From a virus: a stretch of DNA of 20,012 nucleotides. The stretch covers positions 1-20,012 of IMG/VR virus record IMGVR_UViG_3300044987_001088; one strand, given 5' to 3'. Shown here in pieces: positions 30 to 18,853 of the stretch. Below the pieces are notes generated by a model. It was not told where the DNA came from. It made no database searches and was given only the letters and a program-made list of their open reading frames with translations. How positions within the stretch are numbered: position 1 is the stretch's first letter; each line of letters starts with the position of its first letter. The translations under genes and the position numbers were made by a program.

Positions 30-3000
30 ATGGCGGATACTAAAAAAACAGTTAATTTATTGCCCGAGTATCTAAGAACAGATAAGAATGCCAAATTCTT
101 ATCCAGCACCCTTGACCAATTTATTCAGACACCCCAATTAGAGCGAGTTGATGGATATGTAGGCTCAAAGATTACTCCTACTTATGATCCAAATACAGAT
201 TTTTATCTAACAGAAGCGTCACCTCTTCGTAAAAATTATCAATTAGAGCCTGCTCTAATTATTAAAGATCAAAATTCTAAAATTACTGATGTTGTTGCAT
301 TTGATGATATCATTAATGAATTAACAATCCAAGGAGCAAAAACTGAAAATTTAGATACTTTGTTAAGAACAGAGTTCTATTCGTTTAATCCTCCTATTGA
401 CTGGGACAAGTTGGTTAATTTTGACCAATACTACTGGCTTCCAACAGCGCCAAAGTCTATATTAGTTGACAATACAGGCACAAACATTTTTACATCAGTA
501 ATTGGTCAATCAACTTATACTATGCCTAATGGATATGCGCTGAGCAACGGTATGAATGTAATCTTTAAATATTCTGCAACAACCGGAACTAATACAGTTG
601 TTGCAGGTAGAGAATATATTGTTGAAGGTGTTGGCAGCTCTATTAAATTAGTCAGTCTTGATTCTTTAGAATCTTTTGATTCGTTTCTAGTTGTTTATAA
701 CGAAACATTTGACAGCGAGCAATTTGATGATTTTCCGTTCGATGGCGATAAAAAATTACCTGTATATCAAGAATACATAACAATTAATAGAGCCAGTAAT
801 GATAAAAATTCGTGGAGTCGATACAATCGTTGGTTCCATAAAGATGTAATTAAAACTGCGGCTGAGGCCAACGGCCTGGTGCCAACTTATGATGCCAACT
901 TTAGAGCAAAGCGTCCAATTGTTGAATTTAACGCCGATCTCCAATTGTATAATTTTGGTAAGGCCGGAATACCAGCAGTTAATCTAATTGACAATGACAC
1001 AGTAGATGCATTTTCTACAGTGCAGGGATCTTACGGTTATTATGTCGATGAAGTATTATTAGAAGCTGGATTTAAAGTTATCTTTAATGCAGACACAAAT
1101 CCTGATGTAAGGGGCAAAGTCTACGTTGTATCTTATGATATTTCTAGTGGCACACCAATTTTACAATTGACTGAGGACTATACACCTTCTAATCTAGATT
1201 CTGTATCAGTAAAAGAAGGTGCTAATTCCAGCGGCACTAGCTGGCATTATCATGCAACTGACAATGTTTGGGTGTATTCTCAACAGCATACAAACTTAAA
1301 CGTATTTCCATTGTTTGATCTCTTTAACGACACTGGAGTAAGTTATACTGACTTATCTGCGAATAACTTTACTGGATGCAGAGTATTTAATTATGCAGTA
1401 GGATCCGGAATCAACGATACTGTTTTAGGATTTCCTCTAAAATATCAAAATAGTCAAGGAGTAGGTAGTTATCTATTCCAGAACTATTTCATGACTGACG
1501 AAATTTCTATTACTGAAAACAATGTTAGTTCAGTATTCCCAACTGGCATTACATTTTTAAAATATAATGACGGAAATAACACATTAGTAAATGTATGGAC
1601 TGACGCTGAAGAATATAAAATTCCTGTTAATGAAATACAAGTAATTCCTAGTTCAACTAGTTCATTAAAGGTCACTGCGTTTGATAAACCAATTAGCACA
1701 TCAACAACAGTTATTGCCTATGTTAACAATGTTAAAGTATCTACTACCGCTACAGTTAGTTCAACTGGTATTACCGTTAATTTTGAAAATACACTAGCTG
1801 TTAATGATACCGTTGTTTTAAAGTTAACATCTGACCAGGTTCCTAATGTAAATGGATATTATGAAGCTCCTTTGAGCTTAACTAATAATCCATTAAATGG
1901 TCCTATTTCTGATATGACACTTAGCGAGCTAAGTGATCATGTATTCACTGCAATCGGAAGGAACCCAAATTTTGAAGGTATTTTTCCCGGCTCTAGCAAT
2001 CTTAGAGATCTAAGTGATTATGCAAAATATGGAACACGATTTATTGTAAATGCAAATCCTATTTCTTTTGTTAAATTGTTCTTTGGTAAAAAAGAGCACA
2101 ATGTAATAGATGCTATACGATTTGCGGGAGATCAATACAATCAATTTAAGATGAATTTCTTAAAATCTTTAATTAATGTAACCGAGCAGTTAACTCCAGC
2201 AGATGCATTAGATGAAATTTTAAAAGATATTAATAAAAGCAAAGATTCAAAATCTCCGAATTATAGATCCGATATGTTAGCGTATGGGTCTGATAATACT
2301 ATAAGATTTTTTACAGTGACTGATAGCAATGTTACTGAATACCCAGTTGGATATAATTTCGATCTTGATGTTTTAAGTTTTAATTCCGTCCTTGTATACA
2401 TTAACGGAGTTCAACAAGTTTTTGGAAAAGATTATACTTTTAATAAAATTGACGGTTCTGTAATTTTTGATGCAGAATTATCTATAAATGATGAAATTGG
2501 AATAGTGTATTACCCAGATACTCTTGGTTGTTTTGTTCCTGCAACTCCTAGCAAACTAGGGTTATACCCAAAGTTTAAACCAGAACTAGTTACTGATGAC
2601 ACATACCTTGACAGCAGTGTAACAATGATTATTGGCCACGACGGTAGTATGATGAAAGCCTACGGCGATTATCGAGATGCTATTGTTTTAGAATACGAAA
2701 AAAGAATATACAACAACATTAAAGTTGAATACAACTCTGCAATTTTAGATGTTAACAAATACCTACCTGGCGTTTTTAGAGATACAAATAATTCAGTAGA
2801 AGAAATTAATAATATTCTTCAAAAGGATTTTATGAGATGGGCCGGATCCTATGGTGTTAACTATATTTCAAACACCGGGTTTGATGATGGAGATTCGTAT
2901 ACATGGAACTACACAGGCGGTGTTGACAAGTTGTTCAAGCAACCGTTAGCTGGATACTGGAGAAACGTATTTAAATATTTTTACGATACAGACCGACCTG

Positions 3001-6000
3001 ATACGCATCCATGGGAAATGCTAGGGTATTATGAAAAGCCGACTTGGTGGGACACTCATTATAGCTGGACAAATTTGTTAAAGCGAGCAAATTTAATTGA
3101 TGCATTAACTTATGGTAAGACTGAAGAATTTCCATCGTCAGTAGTGAATTCAACTTATGCAAGGCCCGGCTTTGCAAATGTAGTTCCTGTTAATACATTT
3201 GGTAATCTAATTACTCCTAATGTATTATTAGCTGGCCCGATGTCGTATACAGACATGAAAGCAGATTGGAAGTTTGGTGATCATGCTCCTGCAGAAACTG
3301 CGTGGAGAAAGAGTAGCCACTGGCCGTTTGCTATCAGCATATTGGCAGCATTATCTGATCCATCATCTTATGCATCCAGGATGTTTGATATCAGCAGAAC
3401 ATCTTTTAATATTAAAAATCAAATAACTTATAAAGAAGACGATTTATATCTAAGTCCTAAGAAGTTAGTTATCGAAGGTGACAACAATGCTCAGATTGCT
3501 GGGTTTGGTAATTTTGTTATTGAAAGGGGTAATCAACAAACAGTTAATTACACCACACTACTTAAAACAGATTTAACCTACATTAATTTTAATCTATTCC
3601 ACAAGCTGGGAGGTTTTGCCAGCAAAGATAAACTAAGAATTGTTATTGATTCTGTTGATCCATTAACTACTGGTCAGGGGGCGTTACTACCATCTGAGGA
3701 CTATTCGTTAATTTTAAATGTTAGTAACCCAGTTAAGTCATCTAGGATTTCTGGTATCATTGTTCAAAAATCAAACGGACAATTTGTTGTAAAAGGTTAC
3801 GACAGAATGAATCCTTATTTTGACATTTTAAAACCTATTAATACTGCGGTATCCGGTGGAGTAACAGTCGGCGGAACATCAGAATCTTTTACAGAGTGGT
3901 CTAATGTTGTTAACAACAGTAATCCTGCATTGGGTGCTACTGATAGCACAACTGCTAACTCTACAACAACTAGATATTATAGGCAAGGTCAATTAGTAAG
4001 ATATAACGGCAAGTTCTATCGAGTAAAAGTTGGACACACTGCACAATCTACATTTGATCCTGCATTGTTCCAATCATTATCGGGTCTTCCAGTAACCGGG
4101 GGAGCACGAGCTGCATTACCTGCAAAGTTTGCAGGCTCAACTACTCGTATTCCTTATGGCACAGCGTTTTCAACTATACAAGAAGTTTACGATCTTATTG
4201 TTGGATACGGTGCTTACTTAGAAAGCGAAGGATTTGTATTTGATCAATATAATACAGATCTTAATGAAGTAGTCGATTGGAAGTTTACAGGAAAAGAATT
4301 CTTATACTGGACTACACAGAATTGGTCAGATAATAATTTAATTACGTTGTCACCTTTTGCTGATTATTTAAAATACAGTTATTCAAATTCTATTGTAGAC
4401 GATGTTAGCGGTAAGTCTTATGATTATAGTTTGTTAAAAGCAGACGGCACACCGTTTCCTATTGAACGGTTTACTTTATCTAGAGAAGATGCAATTTGTG
4501 TAATTAAAACAGTTAACACTGAAGATGGGTTATTTTTTGCTGTTTTAAATTCTGTGCAGAAAGAGCATGGAATGGTATTTGAAAATACTACGTTGTTCAA
4601 TGACACTATCTATGATATCGAAACCGGATATAGACAGCGTAGAATTAAATTATCTGGATTTAGAACTAAAAACTGGAACGGAGATTTGTTTAGTCCGGGA
4701 TTTGTTTATGATTCAGTTGAAATAACTGATTGGGAACAATACCAAGAATACCTGCCTGGAAAAGTTGTAAGATACAACGGTGCATATTACGAATCTAAAA
4801 TTAGAGTTACAGGTTCTTCTTTTTTTAACTTTAACGAATGGGTAAAGTTAAGTGAAAAACCAATTCCTGATTTACTTCCAAACTTTGATTATAAGATTAA
4901 TCAATTTGAAGATTTCTATAGTTTAGACATTGACAACTTTGATGCAGGGCAACAACAGCTTGCTCAACATCTAATAGGCTATACTCCCCGTTCCTATTTA
5001 AACGAGATTTTTACTAATCCTATCAGTCAATATAAATTCTATCAAGGCCTTATCAAAGACAAGGGTACAAGAAATGCGTTGGATAAGTTATCTAAAGCAC
5101 GAATTTTTAACAATCAAGGATCAATTGATCTTAAAGAAGAGTGGGCATTTAGAATTGGCCACTATGGCGGATTTCCTTCCTATAATGAAATTGAGATTCC
5201 TTTAGAAGAAGGCACGTCTCTTGAAAATCCATATATTGTTAAGTTTGTAGGATCACTTCCCTCTAACAATAACCCGTTGGTTAATTATTACCTTCCTACA
5301 GATTTATTATTGTCTCCTGACAATTACGCATCATCATCTACATTTAAAACATACCCTAGCACATTTGATGATACAAATATCGAATTAACAACAGCTGGAT
5401 ATATTAGACCTGATGATGCTACATTTACTGCTTACAATAAAAATAGTTTATTAGATATTGCAAACAACACACTAATTCAAAATGGTAACACTATTTGGGT
5501 TGGCTTCTTAGAAAACGGCGGCTGGGACATATATCGATATACAAGGCAGTTGGCAAAAATTTCTGGAGTTTTTGTAAGTGCTCCTGCAAGTGAAATTACT
5601 TTTGTTACTAACTTATTTCACAATCTTTCAGTGGGAGATATTGTTTCTGTAGTTAGATTTAACGAACAAGTTAATGGAGTGTATGTTGTTACTGGCGTTC
5701 CTAAGTTAAACCAGTTTACTGTAGCATCGACACTTTCTACTATTACTAATGAAGAATTATTAGCATACGGTGCGCTGTTTAAATTTGACACCGCGCGATA
5801 TGGCTCCTTTAGTGATTTGTCTAAGGCACGAAACCTATTAGGGTTGTCTGCAGGTGAAAAGATTTGGATTGATAACGGATCGTCTGGCAAATGGGAAGTA
5901 TATGAAAAAGTAGAAAACTTTACATCTACATATTTTACCTCTGCAGGATTTAATGCTGGACAACGTTTAGGATACAGTATACATGCTCCTCAAGATAGTA

Positions 6001-9000
6001 ATACAGCGTTAGTATCTTTGCCTGGATATAGGATTCCTTCTAGCAACTTTGTTGGTAGAGTATGGGTAACTGAAAAGACACCATCTAAGTCTATTGAAAA
6101 ATTATTTGATTTTACTTTAAATTCTGCAACCGAAACTTACGCTGCAAATAACACAGCAACTGAATTTGGTTATTCAATGGCCTTTGACATTGCTAAAAAC
6201 TTATATATTGTTGGAGCACCGTCGGCAAGTTTAGTCAGAGCAACTTCTGTCCCTGGACCTGTAACATACAGCACTGGGTCCGGCACCACAAGAATTTATG
6301 ATTATGAAGGTATTGTTAAGATTAGCACAAAGAGTGGAAATGCTAATGCAGAATTAGTTAAGAGAGTTCTTGCACATCCTTATATTGTTAATGCAAATAA
6401 TTCTAGATTTGGCCACTCTGTTTATACAACTCAAAATGCCGCCTCAACTTCTACTTTGTTATTAGTTGGCGCACCGGGCACTACTAGTCATGTAGGAACT
6501 GGTTCAGTATTTGCATATAAGCTAGATTTAACAACTTCTACAGTTAATGTTTCTGCACACAATATCTTTATGGTAGGAACTACTAGCACAGCAGTCCCGT
6601 TAACTATTGGCAGCAAGTTTGGACATAAGATTTCTGGAAGTCTTGATGGAACTAAGATTGCAATCTCTGCGCCCTCATATACCACTTCCACAGCCGGCAC
6701 TACCTACGTCGGAGTTGTTCAGATATTTGACGAGAATTTGACCTGGAAACAAAAAATATTTTCACCATTCGGCACAGACACTGAATTTGGTAGTGATGTA
6801 GCAGTATCATCCACCGGTAAATTTATTGCTATCTCTAGTATAGATGCTCGTCGTAACTCTATCGATCAATATGGCAAAGTTGCTGTTTACAAATGGAATA
6901 ACACATCAAGTCAATATGTCTGGCAACAGACTATTGAAAATTCTGCATCAGCTGGCAACTTAAAGTTTGGATGTGCAATTGATTTTAGCAAAGACGAAAA
7001 GACTTTAGTAATTTCATCATTGGGCACTAATAGATCACAAGTTATTGAATTTGATAAGGCTTCAAAATCTGGTGAAACAACATTTGACGGTGCAACAACT
7101 AGATTTGTTGCAGCTATTCCTGATTCCGGAACTGTTTATGTTTACAATAACCTTGGTGACTATTTTATACAATCTGAAGAATTATCAAATGTAGATATTT
7201 TAGAAGGTAGCAGATATGGAGCTTCGGTTGTTGCTAACAACAATAGTATCTTTATTGGCGCCCCATCATATGCTAGTGTCGGTATTAACACAATTTCAAT
7301 GTCTACTAGCACTATTGCAGGGCTATCTATCGGTGAAAATGCTAGAGTAGAATTTTCAGAACCTGAATTAGATCCTGGTGTTACTCCGTATGTATTGCCA
7401 ATCTATGGCAACGTAACTTCGACGACTAAAGATATTATCGGACTAAGAATAGTAAATGCCGGAACTGGATATCAGTCAAAACCTGTGGCATATTTAAAGA
7501 ATTCTGCAGGAACGATTCTTGATACATTAGTGGTAACACTATCTGCTGATAATTCTAGATTCTATAGATTTAATAAAGTAGATGACTCTACCAATGGGTG
7601 GAACTTATTAAGAGAACAGCCAGATACTGTTGATGTCACTACAGTGAAGCGTATTGCACTAATTGATTCCTTTAAAGAAGAAGTGATTGATTACTTAGAT
7701 GTTTTTGATCCGTTAAAAGGAAAAATTCCAGGTATTGCAGAACAAGAATTAAAATACAAAGCAGCATTTGATCCCGCAGTATACTCTATTGGTATTGCAG
7801 GAACTGTTAATGATGATGAAACAAATTGGATTGATGAGCATATTGGTGAGCTATGGTGGGATTTAAGCACTGCTAAGTATGTCTGGTATGAGCAAGGCGA
7901 TGAAATTTTTAGAAAAAACAATTGGGGCAAACTATTCCCAGGTGCAAGTATTGACGTGTATGAATGGGTGAAATCTGATTTACTACCAAGTGATTGGGCT
8001 GCTCAAGCTGACACCAATGAAGGTTTAACAAACGGAATAAGTGGACAACCAAAATATCCAGACAACAGTGTTGTTTCTGTAAAACAAATATTCAATACTG
8101 TAACAAGTTCTTTTGAAAATGTTCATTACTTTTGGGTTAAGAACAAAGTAACATTACCGGAGTCTAGCAATAGAAGAATTTCCAGTTATCAAGTTGCAAG
8201 TATTATTAGCGATCCACGAGCACTTGGCCTTAAATTTGCTGAGGTGCTTTCTTCGGATTCTATAGCACTGGCTAACGTTCAACCATCATTAGTTGGTAAT
8301 AGGATTAATGCAAATATTGTCACTGATAATATTAACAACGAAATTCCACGTCATACAGAGTGGTTGTTGTTAGAAGAAGGAAATGATAAGACTGTTATTA
8401 ACACTTTATTAGAAAAGAAATTAGTTGATAGTTTGTTAGGACATGATTCCTTTGGTAACCAAGTTCCTGCAAATAACCTTACAGATAGAAACAAATATGG
8501 GTTAGGAATTCGCCCTCAGCAGACAATTTTTAAAGATAGATTTGAAGCATTGAGAAATTTGGTGGGATTTACAAACAGCGTATTGACTGCAAATAGAATT
8601 ACAGGTAATTATTCTTTTGATAATCTCAATACTAAAGAAGAAATTCCCAATGAATTTAGTAGAGACTATGATTTAATTGTTGAAGACTTATCAGAATTAG
8701 AAGATGTAGAAACATCACAATTTAGAAAAGCAACAGCAGTATGCTTTGTATCTAATGGTAAAGTTAAAAATGTAATTATTACTGATCAGGGACTAGGATA
8801 TACATCACCACCTGCAATTACTGTTTCGGCAACAACTGGCACAGGCGCAGTTATCTTAACTGAAATTGACAATTTTGGTAGAGTTATTAATGCAACAGTA
8901 TCTGTTTCTGGAAATGGATACGAACAAGCGCCTTTAATAGAAGTTAGATCACACACTGTTTATGTCCAAGTAAACGAAAACTACGGAAACCGTTGGACTA

Positions 9001-12000
9001 AACACATATATGACTATGAGTTTGATCAGTGGATTAGGATTAAAACACAAACATTTAACACTAAGAACTATTGGACTTACGCCAATTGGATAGATCCTTC
9101 TTACAGTCCTTATAAAGATTACAGCTATGTTGTTAGTGACACATACGAATTAGCAAAATTAGTTGATGCGGTGCCTGGAGATTATGTTAAAGTTAAAAAC
9201 ATAGGCAATGACAATTTTGCAATCCTTGAAAAATTAGATAACAGCACAGTTGGGAACTTCACTCCTAGTTATAATATTATCTACAGTGAAAACGGAACTA
9301 TACAAATCTTAGATTCTATTTGGAATTATGGAACAGGATATGATGTTAATACACTTGAAGAAACATTGTATGATGAAATTCCTGATCTAGAGTTACAATA
9401 TATTTTGACTGCTCTTAAAGAAGATATTTTTATCAAAGACCTTAAAGTTAATTGGAATCTATTCTTCTTCAAGGCTGTTCGATACGCACTTACTGAACAG
9501 AAGTTGTTAGACTGGGCTTTTAAAACATCATTTATTAATGTTCAAAATAGATCTGGAATATTAGATCAACGATCAGTTTACAAACTTGATAATGAAACAG
9601 CAGTAGAAGAATACATTAGAGAGATTAAACCATATCATTCTAAATTAAAAGATTTTACATCTTTCTATAGTTACTCTGATACAACAGCCGAAGGCGTGGC
9701 AATGTCGGCAACTGATTTTGATTTGCCTTCTTATTATAACACAACTACTGACAAATTCACAACAGTTAGTTTGGGAGATAATTTATTAGGATCTCGTCCG
9801 TGGAAAGATTGGGCAGACAATTATACATACATGGTAGAAGATGTCATTGTTGCTGACAGGGGCGTTGGTTACAACTCAACAGTTTCTGTTCGTATCCTAG
9901 GCGGCGGCCCAAATGTTATTACTACTGCTACTGCGGAAGCCTATATAAGAAACGGCGGCATCTATAAGATTCTTGTTACAAACTCTGGAACAGGCTATAC
10001 TACTTCACCGTGGGTGGAAATAACAGGTGGTGGCTCAAATGTAACTACGGTTGCTACAGCGTCAGCAATATTAGGTGGCTCGCCAGTTCGTAAAAATACG
10101 TTAGGACTTAGATTTGATAGAGTTAGTGCAATTAATGAAATTGGTCAACAGACATATACTGATACATTTGTTTGCAATGGCACTACTGAAGGATTTGTAT
10201 TAACTTGGTTAGCTGAACCTAACAAAACAAATATTGTTCCATTGTTAGATGGAAAGTTAATTTTTGCAACTGATTACACTATCGAATACTACACAGAAGA
10301 ATTTAATGGGTATAAGAAAAAATATTCTAAGTTTGTATTCTTAAAACAAATTCCAAAAGAGAATCAGGTGTTTAAGATTACTTACAATAAACATATTGAT
10401 CTATACACAGCAGTTGACAGAATTGATAATTTCTATAACCCAACTAATACAATGATCGGTGACAACGTAGCATTGTTAATGGACGGAGTTGAATACCCAC
10501 AGACACAAATACAAGGCCTGCCGTTCGATTACTCTACCTACTGGGATGCTGCAAATGGTTACGAAAATTCTGCTTGGGAAGATTTAGTTAATTATTATGC
10601 ATCGGCTAAGGTAACTGCCACAGCAACGATTGGCGCAACAACTTTATATTTGAATACTACAACTGGAATAGTTCCAGGCCAAATATTAAATATGTTAAAC
10701 ACAACTACTAATGTTATTAGAACTGATACAGTGGTGTTATCTGTGTCAACTGCATCTAGAACTATTACAATTAGTAACCCTTCTTATACATTAAAAAGAA
10801 TTAGGGCAGCAAATACATCTTCTTTAGGAATTGGTTCGTCTATTATCGTTGAGACTAACAGTTTATTCAAGGGAGACATTCGCCAAGGCGATATTGCAAT
10901 TTTGTCTGGAATTACCTCTGTCGGTTATAATGGAACCTACACTGTAGATGAAATTTTAGGCAATGCAAAATTTAGAGTAACTGCTACTTCTGTATTGTCC
11001 ACTGCTAGGGCAGCAATTAGTGTTAGCGCCGCAGTTAATGTTTCTAGTTTAACAAAACAGATTAATGCAAAGAGTGTGTTCTTAAACAACTATGTTTATA
11101 CAGCAACAAATACATCTACTGCATTAATTGTTACACAATCACCATTAGCTGATGTTACTCGACATGTAGTAACTGCTACAACAAATACAAGTATTATTTC
11201 GTTAACCACAGTTACGTCTACTGTTACTTTATATTATTCTGTAATTCAAGATCCGTCAATTACAGGAAGAGCAGCCGTTAGAGTTTACAACTTAAACACA
11301 ACTACTGCAACCACTATTAATATTAATCTATATAGTGATCCTGCAATTGAATTCTGGGTAAATGATACAAATGCAACAGCATTGGATACTTCAATATCTG
11401 GAGGTAGTTGGTCAGGTGTTGGAATGTCTGGCGCACTTGGTATTGCACCAGAAGACATAATTATTGATGGCGACAGTTTACTAAATGCTAATGCAGGACA
11501 TGCACCAGAAGAGTGTGTTGCGGGACATGTGGTTGATAGTTTGGGCATGAACGTTTATACTAGAAATACTGATCAAAGTGCAGTTATTATTACTGGCGCA
11601 TTTGCTGTAACATCATTGAATACAACAGTGACTTCATACCTAAGTATAGACGATACTGCAATTGCTGGTATTCGAGTTTCTCTAAACGGTGTTACATATG
11701 AAAGGGTTACTAGTTTAGCATTTACTGATACAGATCAGTTCTTTATTGAAGGACGAGTAATTACATTACCGCCACAAACAATGGTTGGTCGCGTTGGATA
11801 CACAATTGTTACAGTGGGCGGCGATGTTTTATTAGATAGCGGCAGTGTTCAAACTTATGGACAATCTTCGGCAATAATTTATAGTTCACTAAGCGAATCT
11901 GATATTAAAGGAGCGTATGTATTAGTTGACGGAACCGAGGTATTTGAAGTAACAACTTCTACAAGTTACGGTTATATGTTGAATGTAAATAATCCACTAA

Positions 12001-13721
12001 ACAATCGAGCATCGGTTACTGTTTATAATTTACCTACAGGAAACCACACTGTTGAAGCATGGTTTTTTGATAACCCATATGGAAACTACAATAGGTTCAA
12101 CGAACAAATAATACAAAGTGATCCATTTACAACTATTGATACATTTACGCTTGACTACCCTCCTGGCAATGTTGAACCTTTGAGTTCTCAAGTAATTGTC
12201 GAACTGTCAACAGGAACAGATCTCACTAACCGTTTAAGACTTACTCCGCCTTGGGTTACTTACTACAAGGTAGAAAACAATCAAACAATATTTCCAATAG
12301 AAACTAAGTATCAAAACCCGGAATGGACAGGCAGCTCATATACTATTGATACACTTAAAGTCTACGCTAACGGCATAATACTACGTGCAGGTTTTGATTA
12401 TACAATTGATAATACCGGAGCCGGATCAATTACTATTACTTCGAACTTGCTAAACAACGGAGATGTTCTTGCAATTGAACTCCTACTTCCTGGTTATTAC
12501 GACTATGTAGTTACAGGAAATACTTTAAGATTAACAACTGCAATTCCGATCCCTGGCACCTCTGAAAATTCGTTAAAGGTAACCTCCTTTACGACCCACG
12601 ACAACATGAATATTAGGACTGAAAGATTTTTTGGCAATGGTGCGAATAAACGTTTTACCTTGGCACTACCTCCGTTATCTGATAGTTATGTTTGGGTATC
12701 TGTAGCAGGCGCATTCTTAATTCCTAATTATGATTTTGAAATATTAGAAGATGGTAAAACTATACAGATTAGCGAATGGTATACTATTAATGAGAATGCT
12801 GACATAGTAATTACTAGTTTTGATATGCCATACAATGGCAGTCAAATTATTGGTTATAGAATTTTTAAAGACATGTTTGACAAACCTTTCTATACAAGAT
12901 TGTCTAAAGCTCATACAACTGAATTGTCTAGAGATCTTCTTTATACTGATACTGAAATTTATGTAACGGACGATGATAAAGTTGTTCCTCCAAATCCTGC
13001 ACAAAACAAACCAGGGGTGTTGATATTAGATGCAGAACGGATTGAATTCTTTAAGAAAGAAGGCAATGTGCTAAGTCAACTTCGCCGTTCTACTTTGGGA
13101 ACTGGTCCTGCAAGATTCTCAGAAGCAGGAACAAAAGTATTAGATCAAAGTCTATTACAACGAATTCCTTATGCAGAATACGAATACAAACAGCATATTC
13201 TTAGCACAACTGCTACTATCTATACAATCAACACTGCTACTTCTTTATTTGCTGCTAATACAACTGGCACAGCAATTACATTAGCATCTAGTGTGCCGGC
13301 CGTTGACCAGATTGAAGTATATTATGGCGGAAGAAGACTTCGTAAAAATTCAATTGAGGTGCATGATAAAGCTATTGCTTATGATTCTAATACTTCGATT
13401 GTTCTTAACGGAATAACAACTACCACCAATATAACATTGGCCGCTGAATTTACAGTAACAACTTCTACACAAGCATTACACTTAAATATAGCTGGCGGAG
13501 TTACTACTGGAACTAGAATTACTGTTATTCAACGTCAAGGGAGAATTTGGAATACCTTAACAGAATCCTTATTAACAAGCAATTCTCTTCAGGCACAGTT
13601 CTTAAGAGATGCTCAAGCTGAATTGCCTAACACTTATTATTATGGTGGTGATCCAGCACTGTCTGAGATAACAAATACGCCGTTAACAAATGATGATGGT
13701 TCACCATTAGAAGGATATTAA
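30..13721 (+). CDS. Giant multidomain virion structural protein (4563 aa)
   Basis: This is a single open frame of 4563 residues with no frameshift or intein, and no signal peptide or membrane segment that I can see. Visible blocks in order: an N-terminal block with [10 protein letters not shown] and [16 protein letters not shown] (1-140); [13 protein letters not shown] (from 262); an '[13 protein letters not shown]' beta module (about 784); [17 protein letters not shown] (868); [16 protein letters not shown] (975) and [24 protein letters not shown] (1083); two YNG carbohydrate-module-like motifs (about 1320 and 1575); [14 protein letters not shown] (1625); seven FG-GAP repeats (1980-2418); [14 protein letters not shown] (2600); G-x-GY repeats; KPYHSK (3200); [15 protein letters not shown] (3825); two more NG/DYT-like modules (4109, 4224); LRRSTLGTG (4351). 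I recall these blocks from very large structural proteins of marine myoviruses, where their role is poorly defined. A tail, baseplate or fibre role is inference from composition and the fibre genes downstream. The ATG at 30 follows a probable TAA by one base. The frame is well supported; the exact function is not. Confidence 0.88.
2952..3335 (+). other. Conserved aromatic-rich block of the giant protein
   Basis: This covers residues about 975-1101. It opens with [16 protein letters not shown], continues with [16 protein letters not shown], and closes with [19 protein letters not shown]. The density of Trp, Tyr, His and Pro is far above the Ser/Thr-rich surroundings, which suggests a compact folded core rather than a fibre shaft. 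I recall the same wording from large structural proteins of marine T4-like phages. No enzymatic motif is visible, so I assign no activity. Confidence 0.6.
5967..7283 (+). repeat. Seven FG-GAP repeats: predicted seven-bladed beta-propeller
   Basis: Within the giant protein, seven repeats begin with (L/F/Y)G-x-(S/K/D/A) and run to a GAP-, SAP- or SS-type turn. They start at residues 1980 (LGYSIH), 2046 (FGYSMAF), 2127 (FGHSVY), 2197 (FGHKISGS), 2253 (FGSDVAVSS), 2313 (FGCAIDFS) and 2396 (YGASVVAN). Turns include IVGAP, LVGAP, AISAP and FIGAP. Spacing is 56 to 83 residues. Seven FG-GAP units is the number that closes an integrin-alpha-type propeller, so the domain looks complete. The classical DxDxDG calcium loop is missing from the repeats, which resemble the FG-GAP_2 type more than the integrin calcium-binding type. 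An adhesion or protein-binding platform is inferred. Confidence 0.75.
7434..7530 (+). repeat. Single G-x-GY beta repeat
   Basis: Around residues 2469-2500 of the giant protein is [17 protein letters not shown], matching the pattern 'V..V.I.N.G.GY...P.V' seen again twice further on. It lies directly after the propeller. Such G-x-GY repeats are common in phage fibre and baseplate beta-structures. Boundaries are approximate. Confidence 0.5.
7827..7869 (+). other. [14 protein letters not shown] conserved motif
   Basis: Residues 2600-2613 of the giant protein carry [14 protein letters not shown], preceded by [20 protein letters not shown] and followed by a YEQGD and a WGKLFPG segment. I recall this arrangement from large marine-phage structural proteins. 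The LWWD core resembles the LWYD/LWVD motif of the fibre proteins at the end of this window, but the surrounding residues differ, so I do not claim homology. Confidence 0.5.
8763..8950 (+). repeat. G-x-GY beta repeat pair
   Basis: Residues about 2912-2973 hold two tandem copies of one pattern: [17 protein letters not shown] followed by [17 protein letters not shown], each leading into a hydrophobic beta strand. It is a short duplicated beta module inside the giant protein, related to the units near residues 2470 and 3270. Boundaries are approximate. Confidence 0.55.
9372..9662 (+). other. Conserved KPYHSK block of the giant protein
   Basis: Residues 3115-3211 run from [20 protein letters not shown] through [17 protein letters not shown] and DWAFKTSFI to [17 protein letters not shown] (KPYH starts at 3200). 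Unlike the beta-rich neighbours, this part has charged and aliphatic periodicity suggestive of helices. I recall the 'DWAFKTSFI ... KPYH(S/T)K' combination as a hallmark of giant structural proteins in marine myoviruses. Its biochemical role is unknown to me. Confidence 0.55.
9834..10080 (+). repeat. G-x-GY / glycine-rich beta repeat pair
   Basis: Residues about 3269-3350 contain two units, [19 protein letters not shown] then ILGGGPNV, and [19 protein letters not shown] then ITGGGSNV, each followed by an alanine/threonine-rich strand (TATAEAYI and TVATASAIL). The second unit is a clear copy of the first, indicating internal duplication. The GY and GGG turns are typical of phage fibre beta-prisms and similar folds. 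Boundaries are approximate. Confidence 0.6.
13709..13715 (+). promoter_or_regulatory. Ribosome-binding site for the collagen-like gene
   Basis: AGAAGGA lies within the last codons of the giant gene, 8 bases before the ATG at 13724. It is the best Shine-Dalgarno match among the junctions in this window and supports that start. Confidence 0.6.
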
Positions 13722-13723
13722 AA

Positions 13724-14521
13724 ATGACAAAAGTTACACAATTACCGTTACTGACTACTGCTACTAGTGCTACAAGCATTCTGGTAGTTGATGATAAGTT
13801 GACAAGGAAAATTGTTTACAGTAATCTAGTCCATGCCGTTGCGGTAGATGCAGTCGGAACTGGATTGATTTCTGTAGGAAATACTGGACCAACTGGCCCC
13901 CAAGGACCTAGAGGACCAACTGGCCCCCAAGGCCCACTTGGAGTAACTGGCCCCCAAGGCCCCCAAGGTGTGCCCGGACCGACTGGCCCAAGTGGCGGAC
14001 CAACTGGCCCAAGTGGGCCCACTGGAGCAGGAGTTCCCACAGGAGGCCTTGTTGGGCAATCGTTAGTAAAAGCATCCAATACTGATTATGATACTACGTG
14101 GCAAACTATTAGTGGCGGAGGAGGTGGCGGCGGGAGCCTACAGTCTAGAACTACGGGCACTGGTTATACATTATCTATCAGTAGCGGAACAACATCAACA
14201 ATTAACATTACTGGTTTTAAAACTTATGTTTTATCAAAAGTTACGACCACATATCCAGCTTGGGTAAGATTGTATACAGATGCAACTAGTAGAACCAACG
14301 ATGTTGCTAGAACTGAAGGCAACGATCCTACTCCCGGCAGTGGAATTATCGCTGAAGTTATTACTACATCTGGGTCTTTGACACAGTTAATTACACCCGG
14401 AGTTATTGGATTTAACAATGATACTTCGACTGTTACTACTGTGTATTTGTCTGTAACAAATAAAGATACAGTATCAAGATCAATTGGTGTTACCTTAACT
14501 TTGTTACAATTGGAATCATAA
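13724..14521 (+). CDS. Collagen-like phage fibre protein (265 aa)
   Basis: The N-terminus ([20 protein letters not shown]...) is the short attachment style of phage fibres. Residues 52-103 are collagen-like: 13 unbroken Gly-X-Y triplets (52-90), a one-residue insertion (Gly91), then four more triplets. Then come [16 protein letters not shown], a motif I recall from phage fibres, and a run of seven glycines (131-137) forming a flexible linker. The C-terminal domain (about 145-265) includes [43 protein letters not shown] and a final [10 protein letters not shown], a beta-rich cap I recall in other tailed-phage fibres. The Gly-X-Y part should form a trimeric triple helix, so a trimeric virion fibre or decoration is likely. 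Receptor binding by the C-terminal cap is inference. The ATG follows the giant gene's TAA by two bases with a good ribosome-binding site. Confidence 0.85.
13877..14032 (+). repeat. DNA repeats encoding the Gly-X-Y stretch, 27-bp period
   Basis: The 15-mer AACTGGCCCCCAAGG occurs at 13891, 13918 and 13945, a perfect 27-base period (three Gly-X-Y triplets). A variant, ACTGGCCCAAGTGG, occurs at 13982 and 14003, 21 bases apart; this short offset reflects the single inserted glycine. The tract is visibly richer in G and C than its surroundings because of Gly and Pro codons. The regular period points to growth by slippage or unequal recombination. Confidence 0.8.
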
Positions 14522-14522
14522 T

Positions 14523-16181
14523 ATGTCTCTTAAAGAATATATTGTTACTCTCCACAGCACGGAAGACTTGGAATCTTTTTATGAAGATATAGAAACTCCT
14601 GGCGGAAATCTATATATTCCTAATCGAGCAGTCCCTGTGCATGTTAGACGTCCAATGAGTAGAAATACACATTATATGCTAACTGATATAGAAGCTAAAC
14701 AACTTGCAGATGATCCTCGAGTTATGGCAGTTGAGTTATCTATGGAAGAGCAAGGTATTCAATTTAGACCAATATGGACACAGACTAGCAGTTTGTGGAA
14801 TAAATCTACCACACTTAGTTCTTCCTATAAAAATTGGGGATTGCTTAGAGTAACTGAAGGTAAACAACGACTAAATTGGGGCAGCACTGCTACTACTACT
14901 GTTTCTGGGTCAATAACTGTTACTGCCAGCGGAAAGAATGTTGATGTTGTTATTGTTGACGGCCATGTTGATCCTACACATCCAGAATTTGCAGTAGATC
15001 CTAGTGGATCGGGCGGCAGTAGGATTAATCAATACAACTGGTTCCTATTAAATCCAGAAGTTACAGGAGGTCCGGCAGGGACTTATGTCTATCCTCCGTA
15101 TGTTGATGCTGCGTATCCAGATAATAACCTTGATGGGATATCTGACAGAACAGCAGATAACGATCACGGTACTCACGTTGCAGGTATTGCGGTCGGCAAT
15201 TCTCAAGGATGGGCAAGAGATGCAAATATTTATAATATAAGCCCCTACTCAACAACACCCAGCGTCACCAGCTTTTTTATTGATTATATTAGAGCATGGC
15301 ATAGACAAAAACCAGTTAATCCTATAACAGGAAGAAAAAATCCAACAATTACTAATCATAGTTACGGAATAGTAAACAAAGTATTAATATCGTCAATTAC
15401 TTCTGTTCGATATCAAGGAGTTACTACAGTGGCCCCTCTAACAGCCGGTCAACTAACAAATCGTGGGATTTATAATGATGGAACCTATGTGTATATGCCC
15501 GGCAGAGCTACATTGGCATTTGAACAAGATTATATAGATGCAATGGCCGAAGGTATTATCTTTGTCGGTGCAGCAGGAAATAACGGATCACTAATTTCTG
15601 AATATAACGCCAATGTCTCTGATAATTATAACAACAGAGTTGACGTAGGTGGAACATTCTATTTTTGGAATAGAGGATCAATATCTGCAATTGATGGAAT
15701 GTTATGTGTCGGTGCTATTGGCATAGCAGTAGAAGATTTTATTTGGTCGTTAACTGAAAGAGGTCCTAGGGTCGATGTGTTTGCTCCTGGTAGACAGATT
15801 ATGAGCAGTGTTAATTCTAGTGTTGGCACAACTGTAGATGATCCTAGAAACTCTTCTTATAGAGTTACTAAAAAGACTGGAACAAGTATGGCAAGTCCGC
15901 AAGTTTGTGGAATACTTGCTTGTCTTGCAGAAACCTGGCAAAATTTATCTCAGTCGCAAGCAATTGAATATATACAAAGATATTCGAAAGAAAATCAAAT
16001 TACGGCGTCAACAGGCGGATTTACTGATACTACGGACTTACTAGGAGCTCCGAACAGATACTTGTATTTCTATAAAGAACGTCCAGTATCTGGGCAAGTT
16101 GGACCCAAGACCAATTTAAATCTTCGTCCTACAACGGGACAAATGTGGCCTCGCCCGCACATATATAGATACGGAAGATAA
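14523..16181 (+). CDS. Subtilisin-family (S8) serine protease in the virion operon (552 aa)
   Basis: The catalytic signatures are complete: Asp146 in VIVDGHVDPTHPEF, His215 in DNDHGTHVAGIAVG, oxyanion Asn353 in GAAGNNG, and Ser455 in GTSMASPQVCG. The N-terminal 75 residues (EYIVTLHSTEDLESFYED ... LADDPRVMAVE) resemble an I9-type inhibitor propeptide, suggesting a zymogen that removes its own prodomain. There is no signal peptide, so it is cytoplasmic or virion-packaged. The C-terminus ends in a basic, proline-rich tail (TTGQMWPRPHIYRYGR). The Asp motif is unusual: the residues after Asp are Gly-His where subtilisins usually have Ser/Thr-Gly. The start is one base after the previous TAA, with only a weak GGAA upstream. 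Placement among fibre and structural genes suggests virion maturation or host-surface proteolysis, which is inference. The peptidase assignment is firm. Confidence 0.93.
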   Translation: MSLKEYIVTLHSTEDLESFYEDIETPGGNLYIPNRAVPVHVRRPMSRNTHYMLTDIEAKQLADDPRVMAVELSMEEQGIQFRPIWTQTSSLWNKSTTLSSSYKNWGLLRVTEGKQRLNWGSTATTTVSGSITVTASGKNVDVVIVDGHVDPTHPEFAVDPSGSGGSRINQYNWFLLNPEVTGGPAGTYVYPPYVDAAYPDNNLDGISDRTADNDHGTHVAGIAVGNSQGWARDANIYNISPYSTTPSVTSFFIDYIRAWHRQKPVNPITGRKNPTITNHSYGIVNKVLISSITSVRYQGVTTVAPLTAGQLTNRGIYNDGTYVYMPGRATLAFEQDYIDAMAEGIIFVGAAGNNGSLISEYNANVSDNYNNRVDVGGTFYFWNRGSISAIDGMLCVGAIGIAVEDFIWSLTERGPRVDVFAPGRQIMSSVNSSVGTTVDDPRNSSYRVTKKTGTSMASPQVCGILACLAETWQNLSQSQAIEYIQRYSKENQITASTGGFTDTTDLLGAPNRYLYFYKERPVSGQVGPKTNLNLRPTTGQMWPRPHIYRYGR

Positions 16182-16211: not shown

Positions 16212-16856
16212 ATGGACAATAAAGAAACAAACAATTTACCAAAACCTGCACCGAACGAAGTCGGCGGCATTAGCATCCAGGGTCATATTAAAATATTTGA
16301 TCCTGTTTCTAAAGAAATCTTTGTTGATAAAAGAAACGCAATTCATTACGAAAACTTTTCTATTGCTATGGCACAGAGTATTTCGAATCAAGGAGAAGGC
16401 ACTATTGCTGAAATGTGTTTTGGTAACGGCGGATCTAGAGTAGATCCAACCGGAATTATTACATATCTAACTCCTAATACTACAGGTAGTGGCGCTGCAT
16501 TATATAATCAAACCTACTATAAAGTAGTTGATGCTAAGAAGTCATACTCCTTAGATCCTGCAAGAAACTTCATGGAAACAAGGCATATTGCAGGTACAGC
16601 ATATACAGATGTATTGGTAAGTTGTTTATTAGATTTTGGAGAACCGAGCAATCAATCTGCTTTTGACACTGCTGGAACAAACGAAGATACCTATGTATTT
16701 GATGAGTTGGGGTTACGATCATACAATCCAGAGGCACCTAATACTGGAATGTTATTAACTCATGTTATTTTCCACCCTGTGCAGAAGTCTTTGAATAGAA
16801 TGATCCAAATTGATTACACTGTGAGAATACAGAGTTTGAGTAATACTGGAATTTAA
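16212..16856 (+). CDS. Conserved phage virion-type protein of unknown function (214 aa)
   Basis: A soluble protein with no signal peptide or membrane segment. After a short polar N-terminus, residues 17-105 read GGISIQGHIKIFDPVSKEIF, VDKRNAIHYENFSIAMAQSI, EMCFGNGGSRVDPTGIITYL and GAALYNQTYYKVVD. I recall this pattern (KRNAIHYEN, FGNGG, TGIITYL, LYNQTY) from conserved, functionally unnamed proteins in tail-fibre regions of marine T4-like phages. The second half includes VLVSCLLDFGEP, TYVFDELGLRSYN, LLTHVIFHPV and a final strand IQIDYTVRIQSL, suggesting a compact beta-rich fold. It lies between the protease and the fibre genes and is probably a tail or baseplate component. The ATG at 16212 has only a distant AGATGGA (16194-16200) upstream. 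Met52 is the next in-frame start but would remove the conserved N-terminal part. Confidence 0.78.
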   Translation: MDNKETNNLPKPAPNEVGGISIQGHIKIFDPVSKEIFVDKRNAIHYENFSIAMAQSISNQGEGTIAEMCFGNGGSRVDPTGIITYLTPNTTGSGAALYNQTYYKVVDAKKSYSLDPARNFMETRHIAGTAYTDVLVSCLLDFGEPSNQSAFDTAGTNEDTYVFDELGLRSYNPEAPNTGMLLTHVIFHPVQKSLNRMIQIDYTVRIQSLSNTGI

Positions 16857-16858
16857 CT

Positions 16859-18853
16859 ATGTCATCAACTTATACACTAAATTTTTCGGATCCCACAAAG
16901 ACTGATACCATAACAGTTCCGGGCACCGCAGTTGGTCCCGGTAAGAATAATTACAGCACTAGTCTTGAATTAATAGGACCCGGCTATACAAATTTTGGTC
17001 AACCTTCAGCGCAGAATCTTGTTAAACTTTTAGAAAACTTTTCCAGCCCTCATCCTCCAAATAATGCGATCGAAGGACAGTTGTGGTATGACACCAGTAA
17101 TCCCGATAGAAAAGTTTTAAGAGTTAATAACGGAACAGCAACTAGCACTCGTTGGCCGAATGTCAGCGGAATATATCATCAACCTAATGACCCTAGTGTG
17201 CAATATTCACTAAGTGTTAAATCTGGAGACCTTTGGGTTGACACTAGTGAAAATCAACTCAAACTTAGAGTTGCAAATACTTGGTCAGTTATTGGCCCAG
17301 GTGCAAGTTCAGGATTAGACAAAACAGGCAGCGAAGCTGCATTTGTTCAAAGCAATACAGGAACAACATATCCTATAATACTTAATTGGGCTAATGGTAA
17401 AGTTGTAGAAGTTATTGCATTCAATGAATTTATACCTAGAACAGTAATTGACGGGTTTACTACAATTAAACCTGGATCAAATTTAACAAATAAAGCTCTT
17501 GCAAAATACAACGGATTAGCTGATAGAGCATCTGCACTCGAAGTTGCACCAAACGTTCTTATTAGGTCCTATGAAGTATTAAAGAATAGAGTAACAAGCC
17601 AAACTCATACAGGGACATTTATTATTCAGGATGCAACCGGACTATTGGTTAAAAATAATTTTTTTCCGTCTGAAAGTATTAGGGTATATAATACATCCGG
17701 CATTGGATACGTAAGCCTTGTTAGTTCTAGTAAACCATTTAAAGTGGGTGTAGGATCTGCGGGAAGTGATGCGTATATTCAGTTCAACCCTCAGAGTAGA
17801 ACAGTTGGAATTAATACTGGATCAGCAGTTGCTACGTTGACTGTCAATGGGTCTGGAAGATTTGAAAATACACTAACAGTTACAACTACTGCATCAGTTG
17901 CATTGAGTATTGCAGGGGGAACGGCAGTTGGTGGAAAATTAACAGTTTCTGGAGACTTTCAGTTATTGGGAGCTACTACCGCAACTGGCCTAGTAACACT
18001 TGGATCACTAGCAGGTAGTGGCACAATTTTAATACCAGCAGCCAACGATGTTTACGATCTTGGCACAACATCTACGGCATTTAGAAAATTATTTGTTTCT
18101 CAAATTGGTGCTACCGGCACTAACGTTGACATTTACGGAACAGTTTACGGAACTGCTACGACATTAGAATCTGCAAGAACTTTCCGTGTAGAGGGAGTTG
18201 TAACTACTACTGTAACTTCGTCTTTTGATGGATCTGCCAATGTAGTGTTTACAACAACTGCACATAAGAGTTTAATAACCGGGCAAGAAACAACATCTAC
18301 GACTGCTGCAACGTTGACTATGTTAGTAGTTAATACATCAACTACAACATCTGTTTTACAACAAATTTCTAAAGCAAATTTCTTATCTGACGTTTATCCG
18401 TTGTTAGTTCCTACTGGAATGATTACTCCTTGGCCAATTTCGACGGCAACAAGCGGTTATTTAATATGTGATGGATCAGAAGTTAGCCAGACGACATACA
18501 GCGCCTTATACAATATGTTTGGATTGCTGTATAATCCGACTCCGACTGCGGGAACATTTAAACTTCCCGACATGCGATATTCTACTGTATTAACTAAGAC
18601 AACAGTAGAAGCATCAACAGTTTCACAATTTGCATCAGCAGGTACTGATACTATTGCTTTATCGACATTAACAAACATTACAGTAGGATTGATGGTTGAC
18701 GGCTATAGTGCTATCGGATACGGTACTTCTGTAGCATCATTTATTGGAACGGATAGTATTAAGTTATCTGCAAATATTGTAGGTGATATTGCAAGCGGAA
18801 TATCATTATCCTTTAGCACAGCTACATATATGAATTACGTTATAAAGACATAA
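16859..18853 (+). CDS. Tail fibre protein with LWYD modules and C-terminal collar motif (664 aa)
   Basis: The N-terminal module (1-150) has NLVKLLENF, then EGQLWYDTS (72-80) and GDLWVDTS (123-130), ending at WSVIGPG. These LWYD modules are typical of marine myovirus fibre proteins. A middle region (150-300) contains IAFNEFIP and GFTTIKPGSNL. The shaft (300-510) is a Thr/Ser/Gly/Val-rich beta stretch with VYDLGTTSTAFRKLFVSQIG and ARTFRVEG. The C-terminus has a tail-collar motif: PTGMITPWP (518-526), GYLICDGSEVSQTTYSALY (533-551) and FKLPDMR (567-573). The usual remainder of the collar is replaced by another module (594-654) before the closing MNYVIKT. Collar domains normally sit at the tips or attachment sites of phage fibres. 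The start follows the previous TAA by two bases. A host-contact fibre is the best reading. Confidence 0.85.
   Translation: MSSTYTLNFSDPTKTDTITVPGTAVGPGKNNYSTSLELIGPGYTNFGQPSAQNLVKLLENFSSPHPPNNAIEGQLWYDTSNPDRKVLRVNNGTATSTRWPNVSGIYHQPNDPSVQYSLSVKSGDLWVDTSENQLKLRVANTWSVIGPGASSGLDKTGSEAAFVQSNTGTTYPIILNWANGKVVEVIAFNEFIPRTVIDGFTTIKPGSNLTNKALAKYNGLADRASALEVAPNVLIRSYEVLKNRVTSQTHTGTFIIQDATGLLVKNNFFPSESIRVYNTSGIGYVSLVSSSKPFKVGVGSAGSDAYIQFNPQSRTVGINTGSAVATLTVNGSGRFENTLTVTTTASVALSIAGGTAVGGKLTVSGDFQLLGATTATGLVTLGSLAGSGTILIPAANDVYDLGTTSTAFRKLFVSQIGATGTNVDIYGTVYGTATTLESARTFRVEGVVTTTVTSSFDGSANVVFTTTAHKSLITGQETTSTTAATLTMLVVNTSTTTSVLQQISKANFLSDVYPLLVPTGMITPWPISTATSGYLICDGSEVSQTTYSALYNMFGLLYNPTPTAGTFKLPDMRYSTVLTKTTVEASTVSQFASAGTDTIALSTLTNITVGLMVDGYSAIGYGTSVASFIGTDSIKLSANIVGDIASGISLSFSTATYMNYVIKT
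18639..18821 (+). other. Replacement module in the collar domain
   Basis: Residues about 594-654 of the 664-residue fibre, with TDTIALSTLTNITVGLMVDG, GYGTSVASF, TDSIKLS and ISLSFS, sit between FKLPDMR and the terminal MNYVIKT. The 'T-x-(I/L)-x-L ... (V)G(L/Q) ... I-x-(L/I)S' layout resembles residues about 3533-3590 of the giant protein ([20 protein letters not shown], then ISNP). It appears to be a small portable beta module. Boundaries are approximate and homology to the giant protein is tentative. Confidence 0.45.

Follow-up and report, generated by a model that had tools for sequence, protein, structure and literature searches.

The genes for gp37 and gp38 are adjacent. In T2/S16-type phages, gp38 is a separate tip adhesin that caps the distal end of the gp37 fibre (PMC6630733). 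Most virion-associated depolymerases are hydrolases or lyases of glycans, and many sit inside trimeric tailspikes; one polypeptide-cleaving virion-associated example is the PhiNIT1 phage peptidase, which cuts poly-gamma-glutamate (PMC5380687). The subtilase described here, encoded directly behind a fibre gene of a T4-like phage from a widespread aquatic group, resembles a detachable tip adhesin of the gp38 kind combined with a virion depolymerase, an analogy that does not claim membership of either group. Like gp38 it would be a separate tip protein, but gp38 is a polyglycine-rich binder and not an enzyme, and no sequence relation between the two is claimed. With the depolymerases, including the PhiNIT1 peptidase, the proposed cap would share the property of being a phage-borne enzyme that opens the host surface, although for the protease this action is inferred.

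By sequence, the closest described proteins are those of the phrog_9158 / T4-GC_292 family of cyanomyoviruses (S-H38, S-CREM1, S-WAM2, P-SSM2). These have full-length homology to the protease (35-45% in the closer clades) and the same prodomain and triad, and they start 0-1 bp after a fibre gene. Several phage records already annotate the homologue as a "subtilisin-like serine protease", and it is T4-GC 292 in P-SSM2. The enzyme family is known and annotated; its setting behind a constant fibre domain is new here, and no published description of the phrog_9158 protease as a tail enzyme was found in the literature searched. More distantly, S8 subtilases with an I9 propeptide (proteinase K, aqualysin, subtilisin) share the catalytic fold (Foldseek E 4e-18), the catalytic residues and the order of prodomain elements. 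Unlike these, the phage protease has no signal peptide, carries a conserved disordered C-terminal tail and is only 16-21% identical. The window, that is the whole stretch of DNA analyzed, is an entire 20,012-base virus record, and its relevant features are collected in Table 1.

Table 1. Features of the protease locus and neighbouring genes, with positions in the window.
Feature	Position	Strand	Basis or remark
Giant virion structural protein, 4563 aa, phrog_10938	30..13721	+	Same place as giant baseplate-wedge gene of S-H38, S-CREM1
Upstream fibre, 265 aa, collagen-like stretch at residues 52-93	13724..14521	+	
Fibre C-terminal domain, last ~125 aa, jelly-roll-like beta fold	14144..14518	+	Constant partner of protease gene
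Subtilase (S8) gene, 552 aa, phrog_9158 / T4-GC_292 family	14523..16181	+	ATG to TAA
I9-like prodomain, residues 1-75, predicted beta-alpha-beta-beta-alpha-beta	14523..14747	+	AlphaFold2, Foldseek
Variable linker, poorly modelled at residues 78-83; probable self-cleavage zone	14748..14834	+	Alignment, AlphaFold2
Catalytic domain, ~residues 105-495	14835..16007	+	Pfam, AlphaFold2, Foldseek
Catalytic Asp146 codon	14958..14960	+	Invariant 87/87; Glu in S-CAM1
Catalytic His215 codon	15165..15167	+	Invariant 87/87
Oxyanion-hole Asn353 codon	15579..15581	+	Invariant 87/87
Catalytic Ser455 codon	15885..15887	+	Invariant 87/87
Disordered C-terminal tail, residues 516-552; candidate docking peptide	16068..16178	+	Low pLDDT
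RPxxGxxWPR motif, residues 535-544	16125-16154	+	Conservation; tracks upstream fibre domain
ORF, 214 aa, phrog_11259	16212..16856	+	Similar-sized ORFs 3' of protease in many relatives
Tail fibre with phage collar domain (PF07484)	16859..18853	+	
Fibre-like ORF, 356 aa	18858..19928	+	Weak structural matches only

The subtilase, its predicted fold and its relatives

The protein is an S8 subtilase by profile, by its triad and oxyanion asparagine and by its predicted fold. Pfam Peptidase_S8 (PF00082) matches the catalytic domain with E=1.1e-26 (94 bits, where the cut-off is 21.8), and the phrog_9158 match spans the full length (residues 3-548 of 552, E=9.6e-106). An earlier note on this DNA, made from the letters alone, had described all four S8 signatures as intact, and they are: D146, H215, N353 and S455 are unchanged in 87/87 aligned homologues, which represent 65 clusters at 90% identity. 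Loss of catalytic residues from most homologues, named in that note as telling against its reading, was not seen. Because the four residues are invariant, catalysis by the protease appears to be under selection. Among 18 more diverse homologues the sole departure is that of S-CAM1, with Glu for the catalytic Asp. This protein (L014:6990-9245) has a long divergent N-terminal part and is annotated as a tail fibre. It retains the upstream fibre domain and the C-terminal tail motif.

An AlphaFold2 model built on a 57-sequence alignment (pLDDT 87) predicts strand 4-10, helix 13-24, strands 39-42 and 48-53, helix 55-61 and strand 67-72 at the N-terminus, which is the I9 order. Pfam I9 gave no match in the protease at E<=0.1, so the assignment of a prodomain rests on the predicted fold; the mean majority-residue frequency of this region is 67%. 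The best subtilase match of the model in Foldseek has E=3.6e-18 (subtilisin fold); unautoprocessed pro-subtilisin E and ProN-Tk-SP also match, aligned over more than 500 columns with the propeptide, as does PCSK9. The structure prediction agrees with the I9-like prodomain proposed in the earlier note, and the self-activation it suggested is plausible. The absence of a secretion signal that it reported also holds: the first predicted strand begins at residue 4, too early for a signal peptide to precede it, and a hydrophobic run is absent.

A tblastn search with the protease retrieved 46 phage records, nearly all of them cyanomyoviruses, and at least 568 confirmed relatives were found in IMG/VR, where the nearest among the matches listed is 61% identical. 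Among bacterial and archaeal genomes, a scan turned up just four long relatives; each lies in a metagenome-bin contig and follows the same fibre domain, which makes phage DNA the probable source. The remaining 46 matches are to the generic S8 core. The family looks phage-borne on this sequence evidence, and a cellular origin was rejected on the result of the same scan. The photosynthesis gene psbA was not found in ten long IMG/VR records that hold close homologues, so a cyanobacterial host cannot be assigned to the phage of the window by psbA. Two S8 genes occur in each of two records, neighbouring at 295060-299384 in one of jumbo size (G017, the 383-kb record of L170) and far apart in the other (G015, the record of L125).

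The upstream fibre domain and the protease tail

The protease start follows the stop of the collagen-like fibre gene after a single base (TAA-T-ATG), as the earlier note had observed, and a fibre is likewise the gene immediately upstream in the isolates and loci read. What is constant in these fibres is their C-terminal end. The last ~125 aa are ~36-70% conserved between distinct phages, with a conserved Glu as the final residue, and this domain precedes the protease in 82/83 IMG/VR loci with a readable upstream gene; the gap between the two genes nearly always lies between -4 and +8 bp. The bodies of the same fibres vary completely, with or without collagen and with several N-terminal types, and the fibres are 168-1724 aa long. 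A reverse search from the fibre domain left 79 usable loci. The protease came next in 71 of them (43 non-redundant) and a second large protein family in eight (seven non-redundant); a third kind of neighbour never occurred. Because the query derived from protease-linked fibres, the ratio of 71:8 is biased, but this does not explain the absence of other neighbours. Chance linkage of protease and fibre domain is rejected by this two-way search. The position expected of a gp38-like cap, right behind a fibre whose C-terminal domain is constant, is the one seen in 82/83 loci and again in the reverse search.

The fibre domain has no solved relatives by sequence and, by fold, weak jelly-roll matches only. 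Some of the latter, at E ~0.02-0.04, are to the P-domain (or C-terminal jelly-roll) found in Kex2, furin and Tk-SP; these could be chance.

The tail of the protease varies with the fibre end that precedes it. In 60 clusters, R535 is conserved at 98%, G539 at 93%, P543 at 100% and R544 at 97%, and family-wide the motif is a near-invariant R..G..YPR, present in every full-length homologue that stands behind the ~125-aa fibre domain. Only one full-length homologue, that of L080, lacks this domain upstream, and there the tail motif is also missing; the protease of this locus (L080:7986-10034) bears a different C-terminal extension. The proteins of P-SSM2, S-SCSM1, Sf-CH8 and S-T4 follow another type of fibre end and have their own tail motif, (F/Y)(N/S)P(F/Y)xN, with no R..G..YPR. 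No homology between the two types of fibre tip was detectable (hhalign probability 0.2%). The coupling of motif and fibre domain suggests that the C-terminal tail is the element that docks the protease on the fibre tip.

A second partner family, fused domains and virions

The second partner family is found in S-BM3, Sf-CH1b, S-H9-1 and ACG-2014i and as gp140 of S-SCSM1, and has neither a Pfam match nor any protease signal. S-H9-1 and ACG-2014i each carry both cassettes in one phage, and S-SCSM1 has protease and non-protease pairs. In S-BM3, a 7.9-kb gene labelled "peptidase S8" (L030:1-3337) was not matched by tblastn with the window protease; the label may be mistaken, or the domain highly divergent.

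Several of the proteases are extended by further domains. S-SCSM1 gp144 (1411 aa) consists of a subtilase followed by two laminin-G-like (lectin-like) domains, and in ACG-2014h (L022:6995-9919) the protease is fused to an alpha/beta-hydrolase (esterase-like, with a weak AXE1/BD-FAE match) and a cupredoxin-like domain. A cupredoxin-like domain is also fused to the C-terminus of the protease in S-H9-1, S-CAM4 and others, and this module is common to some proteases and the second partner family. Its His..Cys..His..Met pattern was seen at the protease C-termini of L011, L023, L024, L025 and L026 and in the partners of L031 and L011.

Is the protease carried on the particle? In the S-SCSM1 record, a virion-protein tag is attached to gp144, to the fibre upstream of it (gp145) and to both members of the other pair (gp141/gp140). 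Mass spectrometry detected 45 proteins in S-SCSM1 virions, among them three unusual ones, an NMNAT, a lysozyme-like and a carboxypeptidase-like protein (PMC9602691). The record has ~47 tags by our count against these 45, and the tags cover the three unusual proteins, so very probably they reflect that experiment. The tagged homologue is distant, fused and of another fibre-tip type than that of the window. The S-SCSM1 proteome also has the prohead protease and scaffold, so that detection there is no proof of stable assembly. For S-CREM1, a close relative, 14 proteins only were detected, and the peptidase is not named in the main text of the paper. On the S-SCSM1 tag, virion association is likely.

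Possible roles of the fibre-linked protease

The reading that we favour, with a confidence that barely tips to the positive side, is that this self-activating subtilisin forms the second half of a two-gene fibre-tip cassette, as an exchangeable cap that cuts a host surface protein. The upstream gene would provide a fibre with a freely varying body and a common beta-fold tip formed by its C-terminal ~125 aa. In the infected cell, the protease would be synthesized with a prodomain of the I9 type, which aids folding and is then removed. It would dock on the fibre tip, probably via its flexible R..G..YPR tail, and be displayed on the virion, facing outward. During adsorption it would most likely cut a host surface protein, as tail depolymerases cut polysaccharide, and the second partner family, in which no protease domain is detectable, would occupy the same slot on other fibres. 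A wider proposal, which can be put forward only tentatively, is that a common fibre-tip socket in T4-like marine and freshwater phages takes one of two unrelated caps, either a self-activating subtilisin docked by its own conserved tail or a non-protease, and that the subtilisin breaks open the host's protein surface as the phage adsorbs.

A cap facing the host has to be weighed against an enzyme that works during assembly, cutting its partner fibre (for example to detach a C-terminal domain that serves as a chaperone) or some other protein of the tail and remaining a virion passenger only. The missing signal peptide, the prodomain, the late structural cluster and the strict pairing with one fibre domain all agree with such a morphogenetic protease, and gene adjacency would fit a dedicated fibre-maturation enzyme too. 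It is nevertheless unlikely in our view: the non-protease family follows the same fibre domain in 8/79 loci, and also in S-BM3, Sf-CH1b and others, so the fibre domain needs no protease; the lectin and esterase fusions point outward; and the fibre bodies share no sequence usable as a common target. The pairing with the fibre domain, the non-protease swap and the lectin and esterase fusions together fit a host-facing tip enzyme better. The earlier suggestion of a virion or maturation protease is supported as to a likely virion association, while maturation is the weaker of its two halves. In an alternative that we consider doubtful, the subtilase would cut its own prodomain only and then serve as a receptor-binding cap in the manner of PCSK9. 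In its favour, Foldseek lists PCSK9 among its matches, the other cap family shows no signature of an enzyme and S-CAM1 has lost the canonical Asp; against this, many true enzymes match as well or better in Foldseek, and a blocked active site was not seen in the AlphaFold2 model.

Two further roles take the protease off the fibre altogether. The missing secretion signal would suit an intracellular protease that acts on host proteins in the infected cell, in takeover or counter-defence, but the position in a fibre cassette, the fusions to surface-binding domains and the virion tag of the S-SCSM1 homologue make this very improbable. An alternative prohead protease, for which a protease amid structural genes is the whole of the argument, is hardly conceivable: gp21/Peptidase_S77 is also encoded in 15/15 isolate genomes with the S8 gene, and the window protease is S8 by sequence and no replacement for the separate gp21. 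That role is refuted in these genomes, in line with the earlier remark that subtilisins are not the usual prohead proteases of T4-like phages.

If the host-facing cap is correct, abundant aquatic phages would also attack surface proteins, by means of a plug-in protease on the fibre, and a corresponding receptor or barrier could be sought in their hosts. To our knowledge, the tail enzymes known so far act almost entirely on glycans. The protease would be a proteolytic counterpart of the tailspike depolymerases in the form of a separate, swappable subunit, and the fibre tip a natural socket with a coupled docking motif that is directly testable. With the number of IMG/VR relatives given above, the protease family is widespread.

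The earlier note called the giant protein or the neighbouring fibres plausible substrates and named co-occurrence of the gene with the fibre cluster as a check. Co-occurrence was borne out for the fibre C-terminal domain, but not for collagen or the giant protein: most relatives sit behind non-collagen fibres, and the gene neighbourhoods of most lie away from any giant gene. Neither is therefore a conserved partner, and with the fibre C-terminal domain as the only constant neighbour, the giant protein or collagen fibre is not upheld as the natural substrate. Within the giant protein of the window, a short match to the carbohydrate-binding module CBM_5_12 was seen at residues 1316-1340 (positions 3975-4049).
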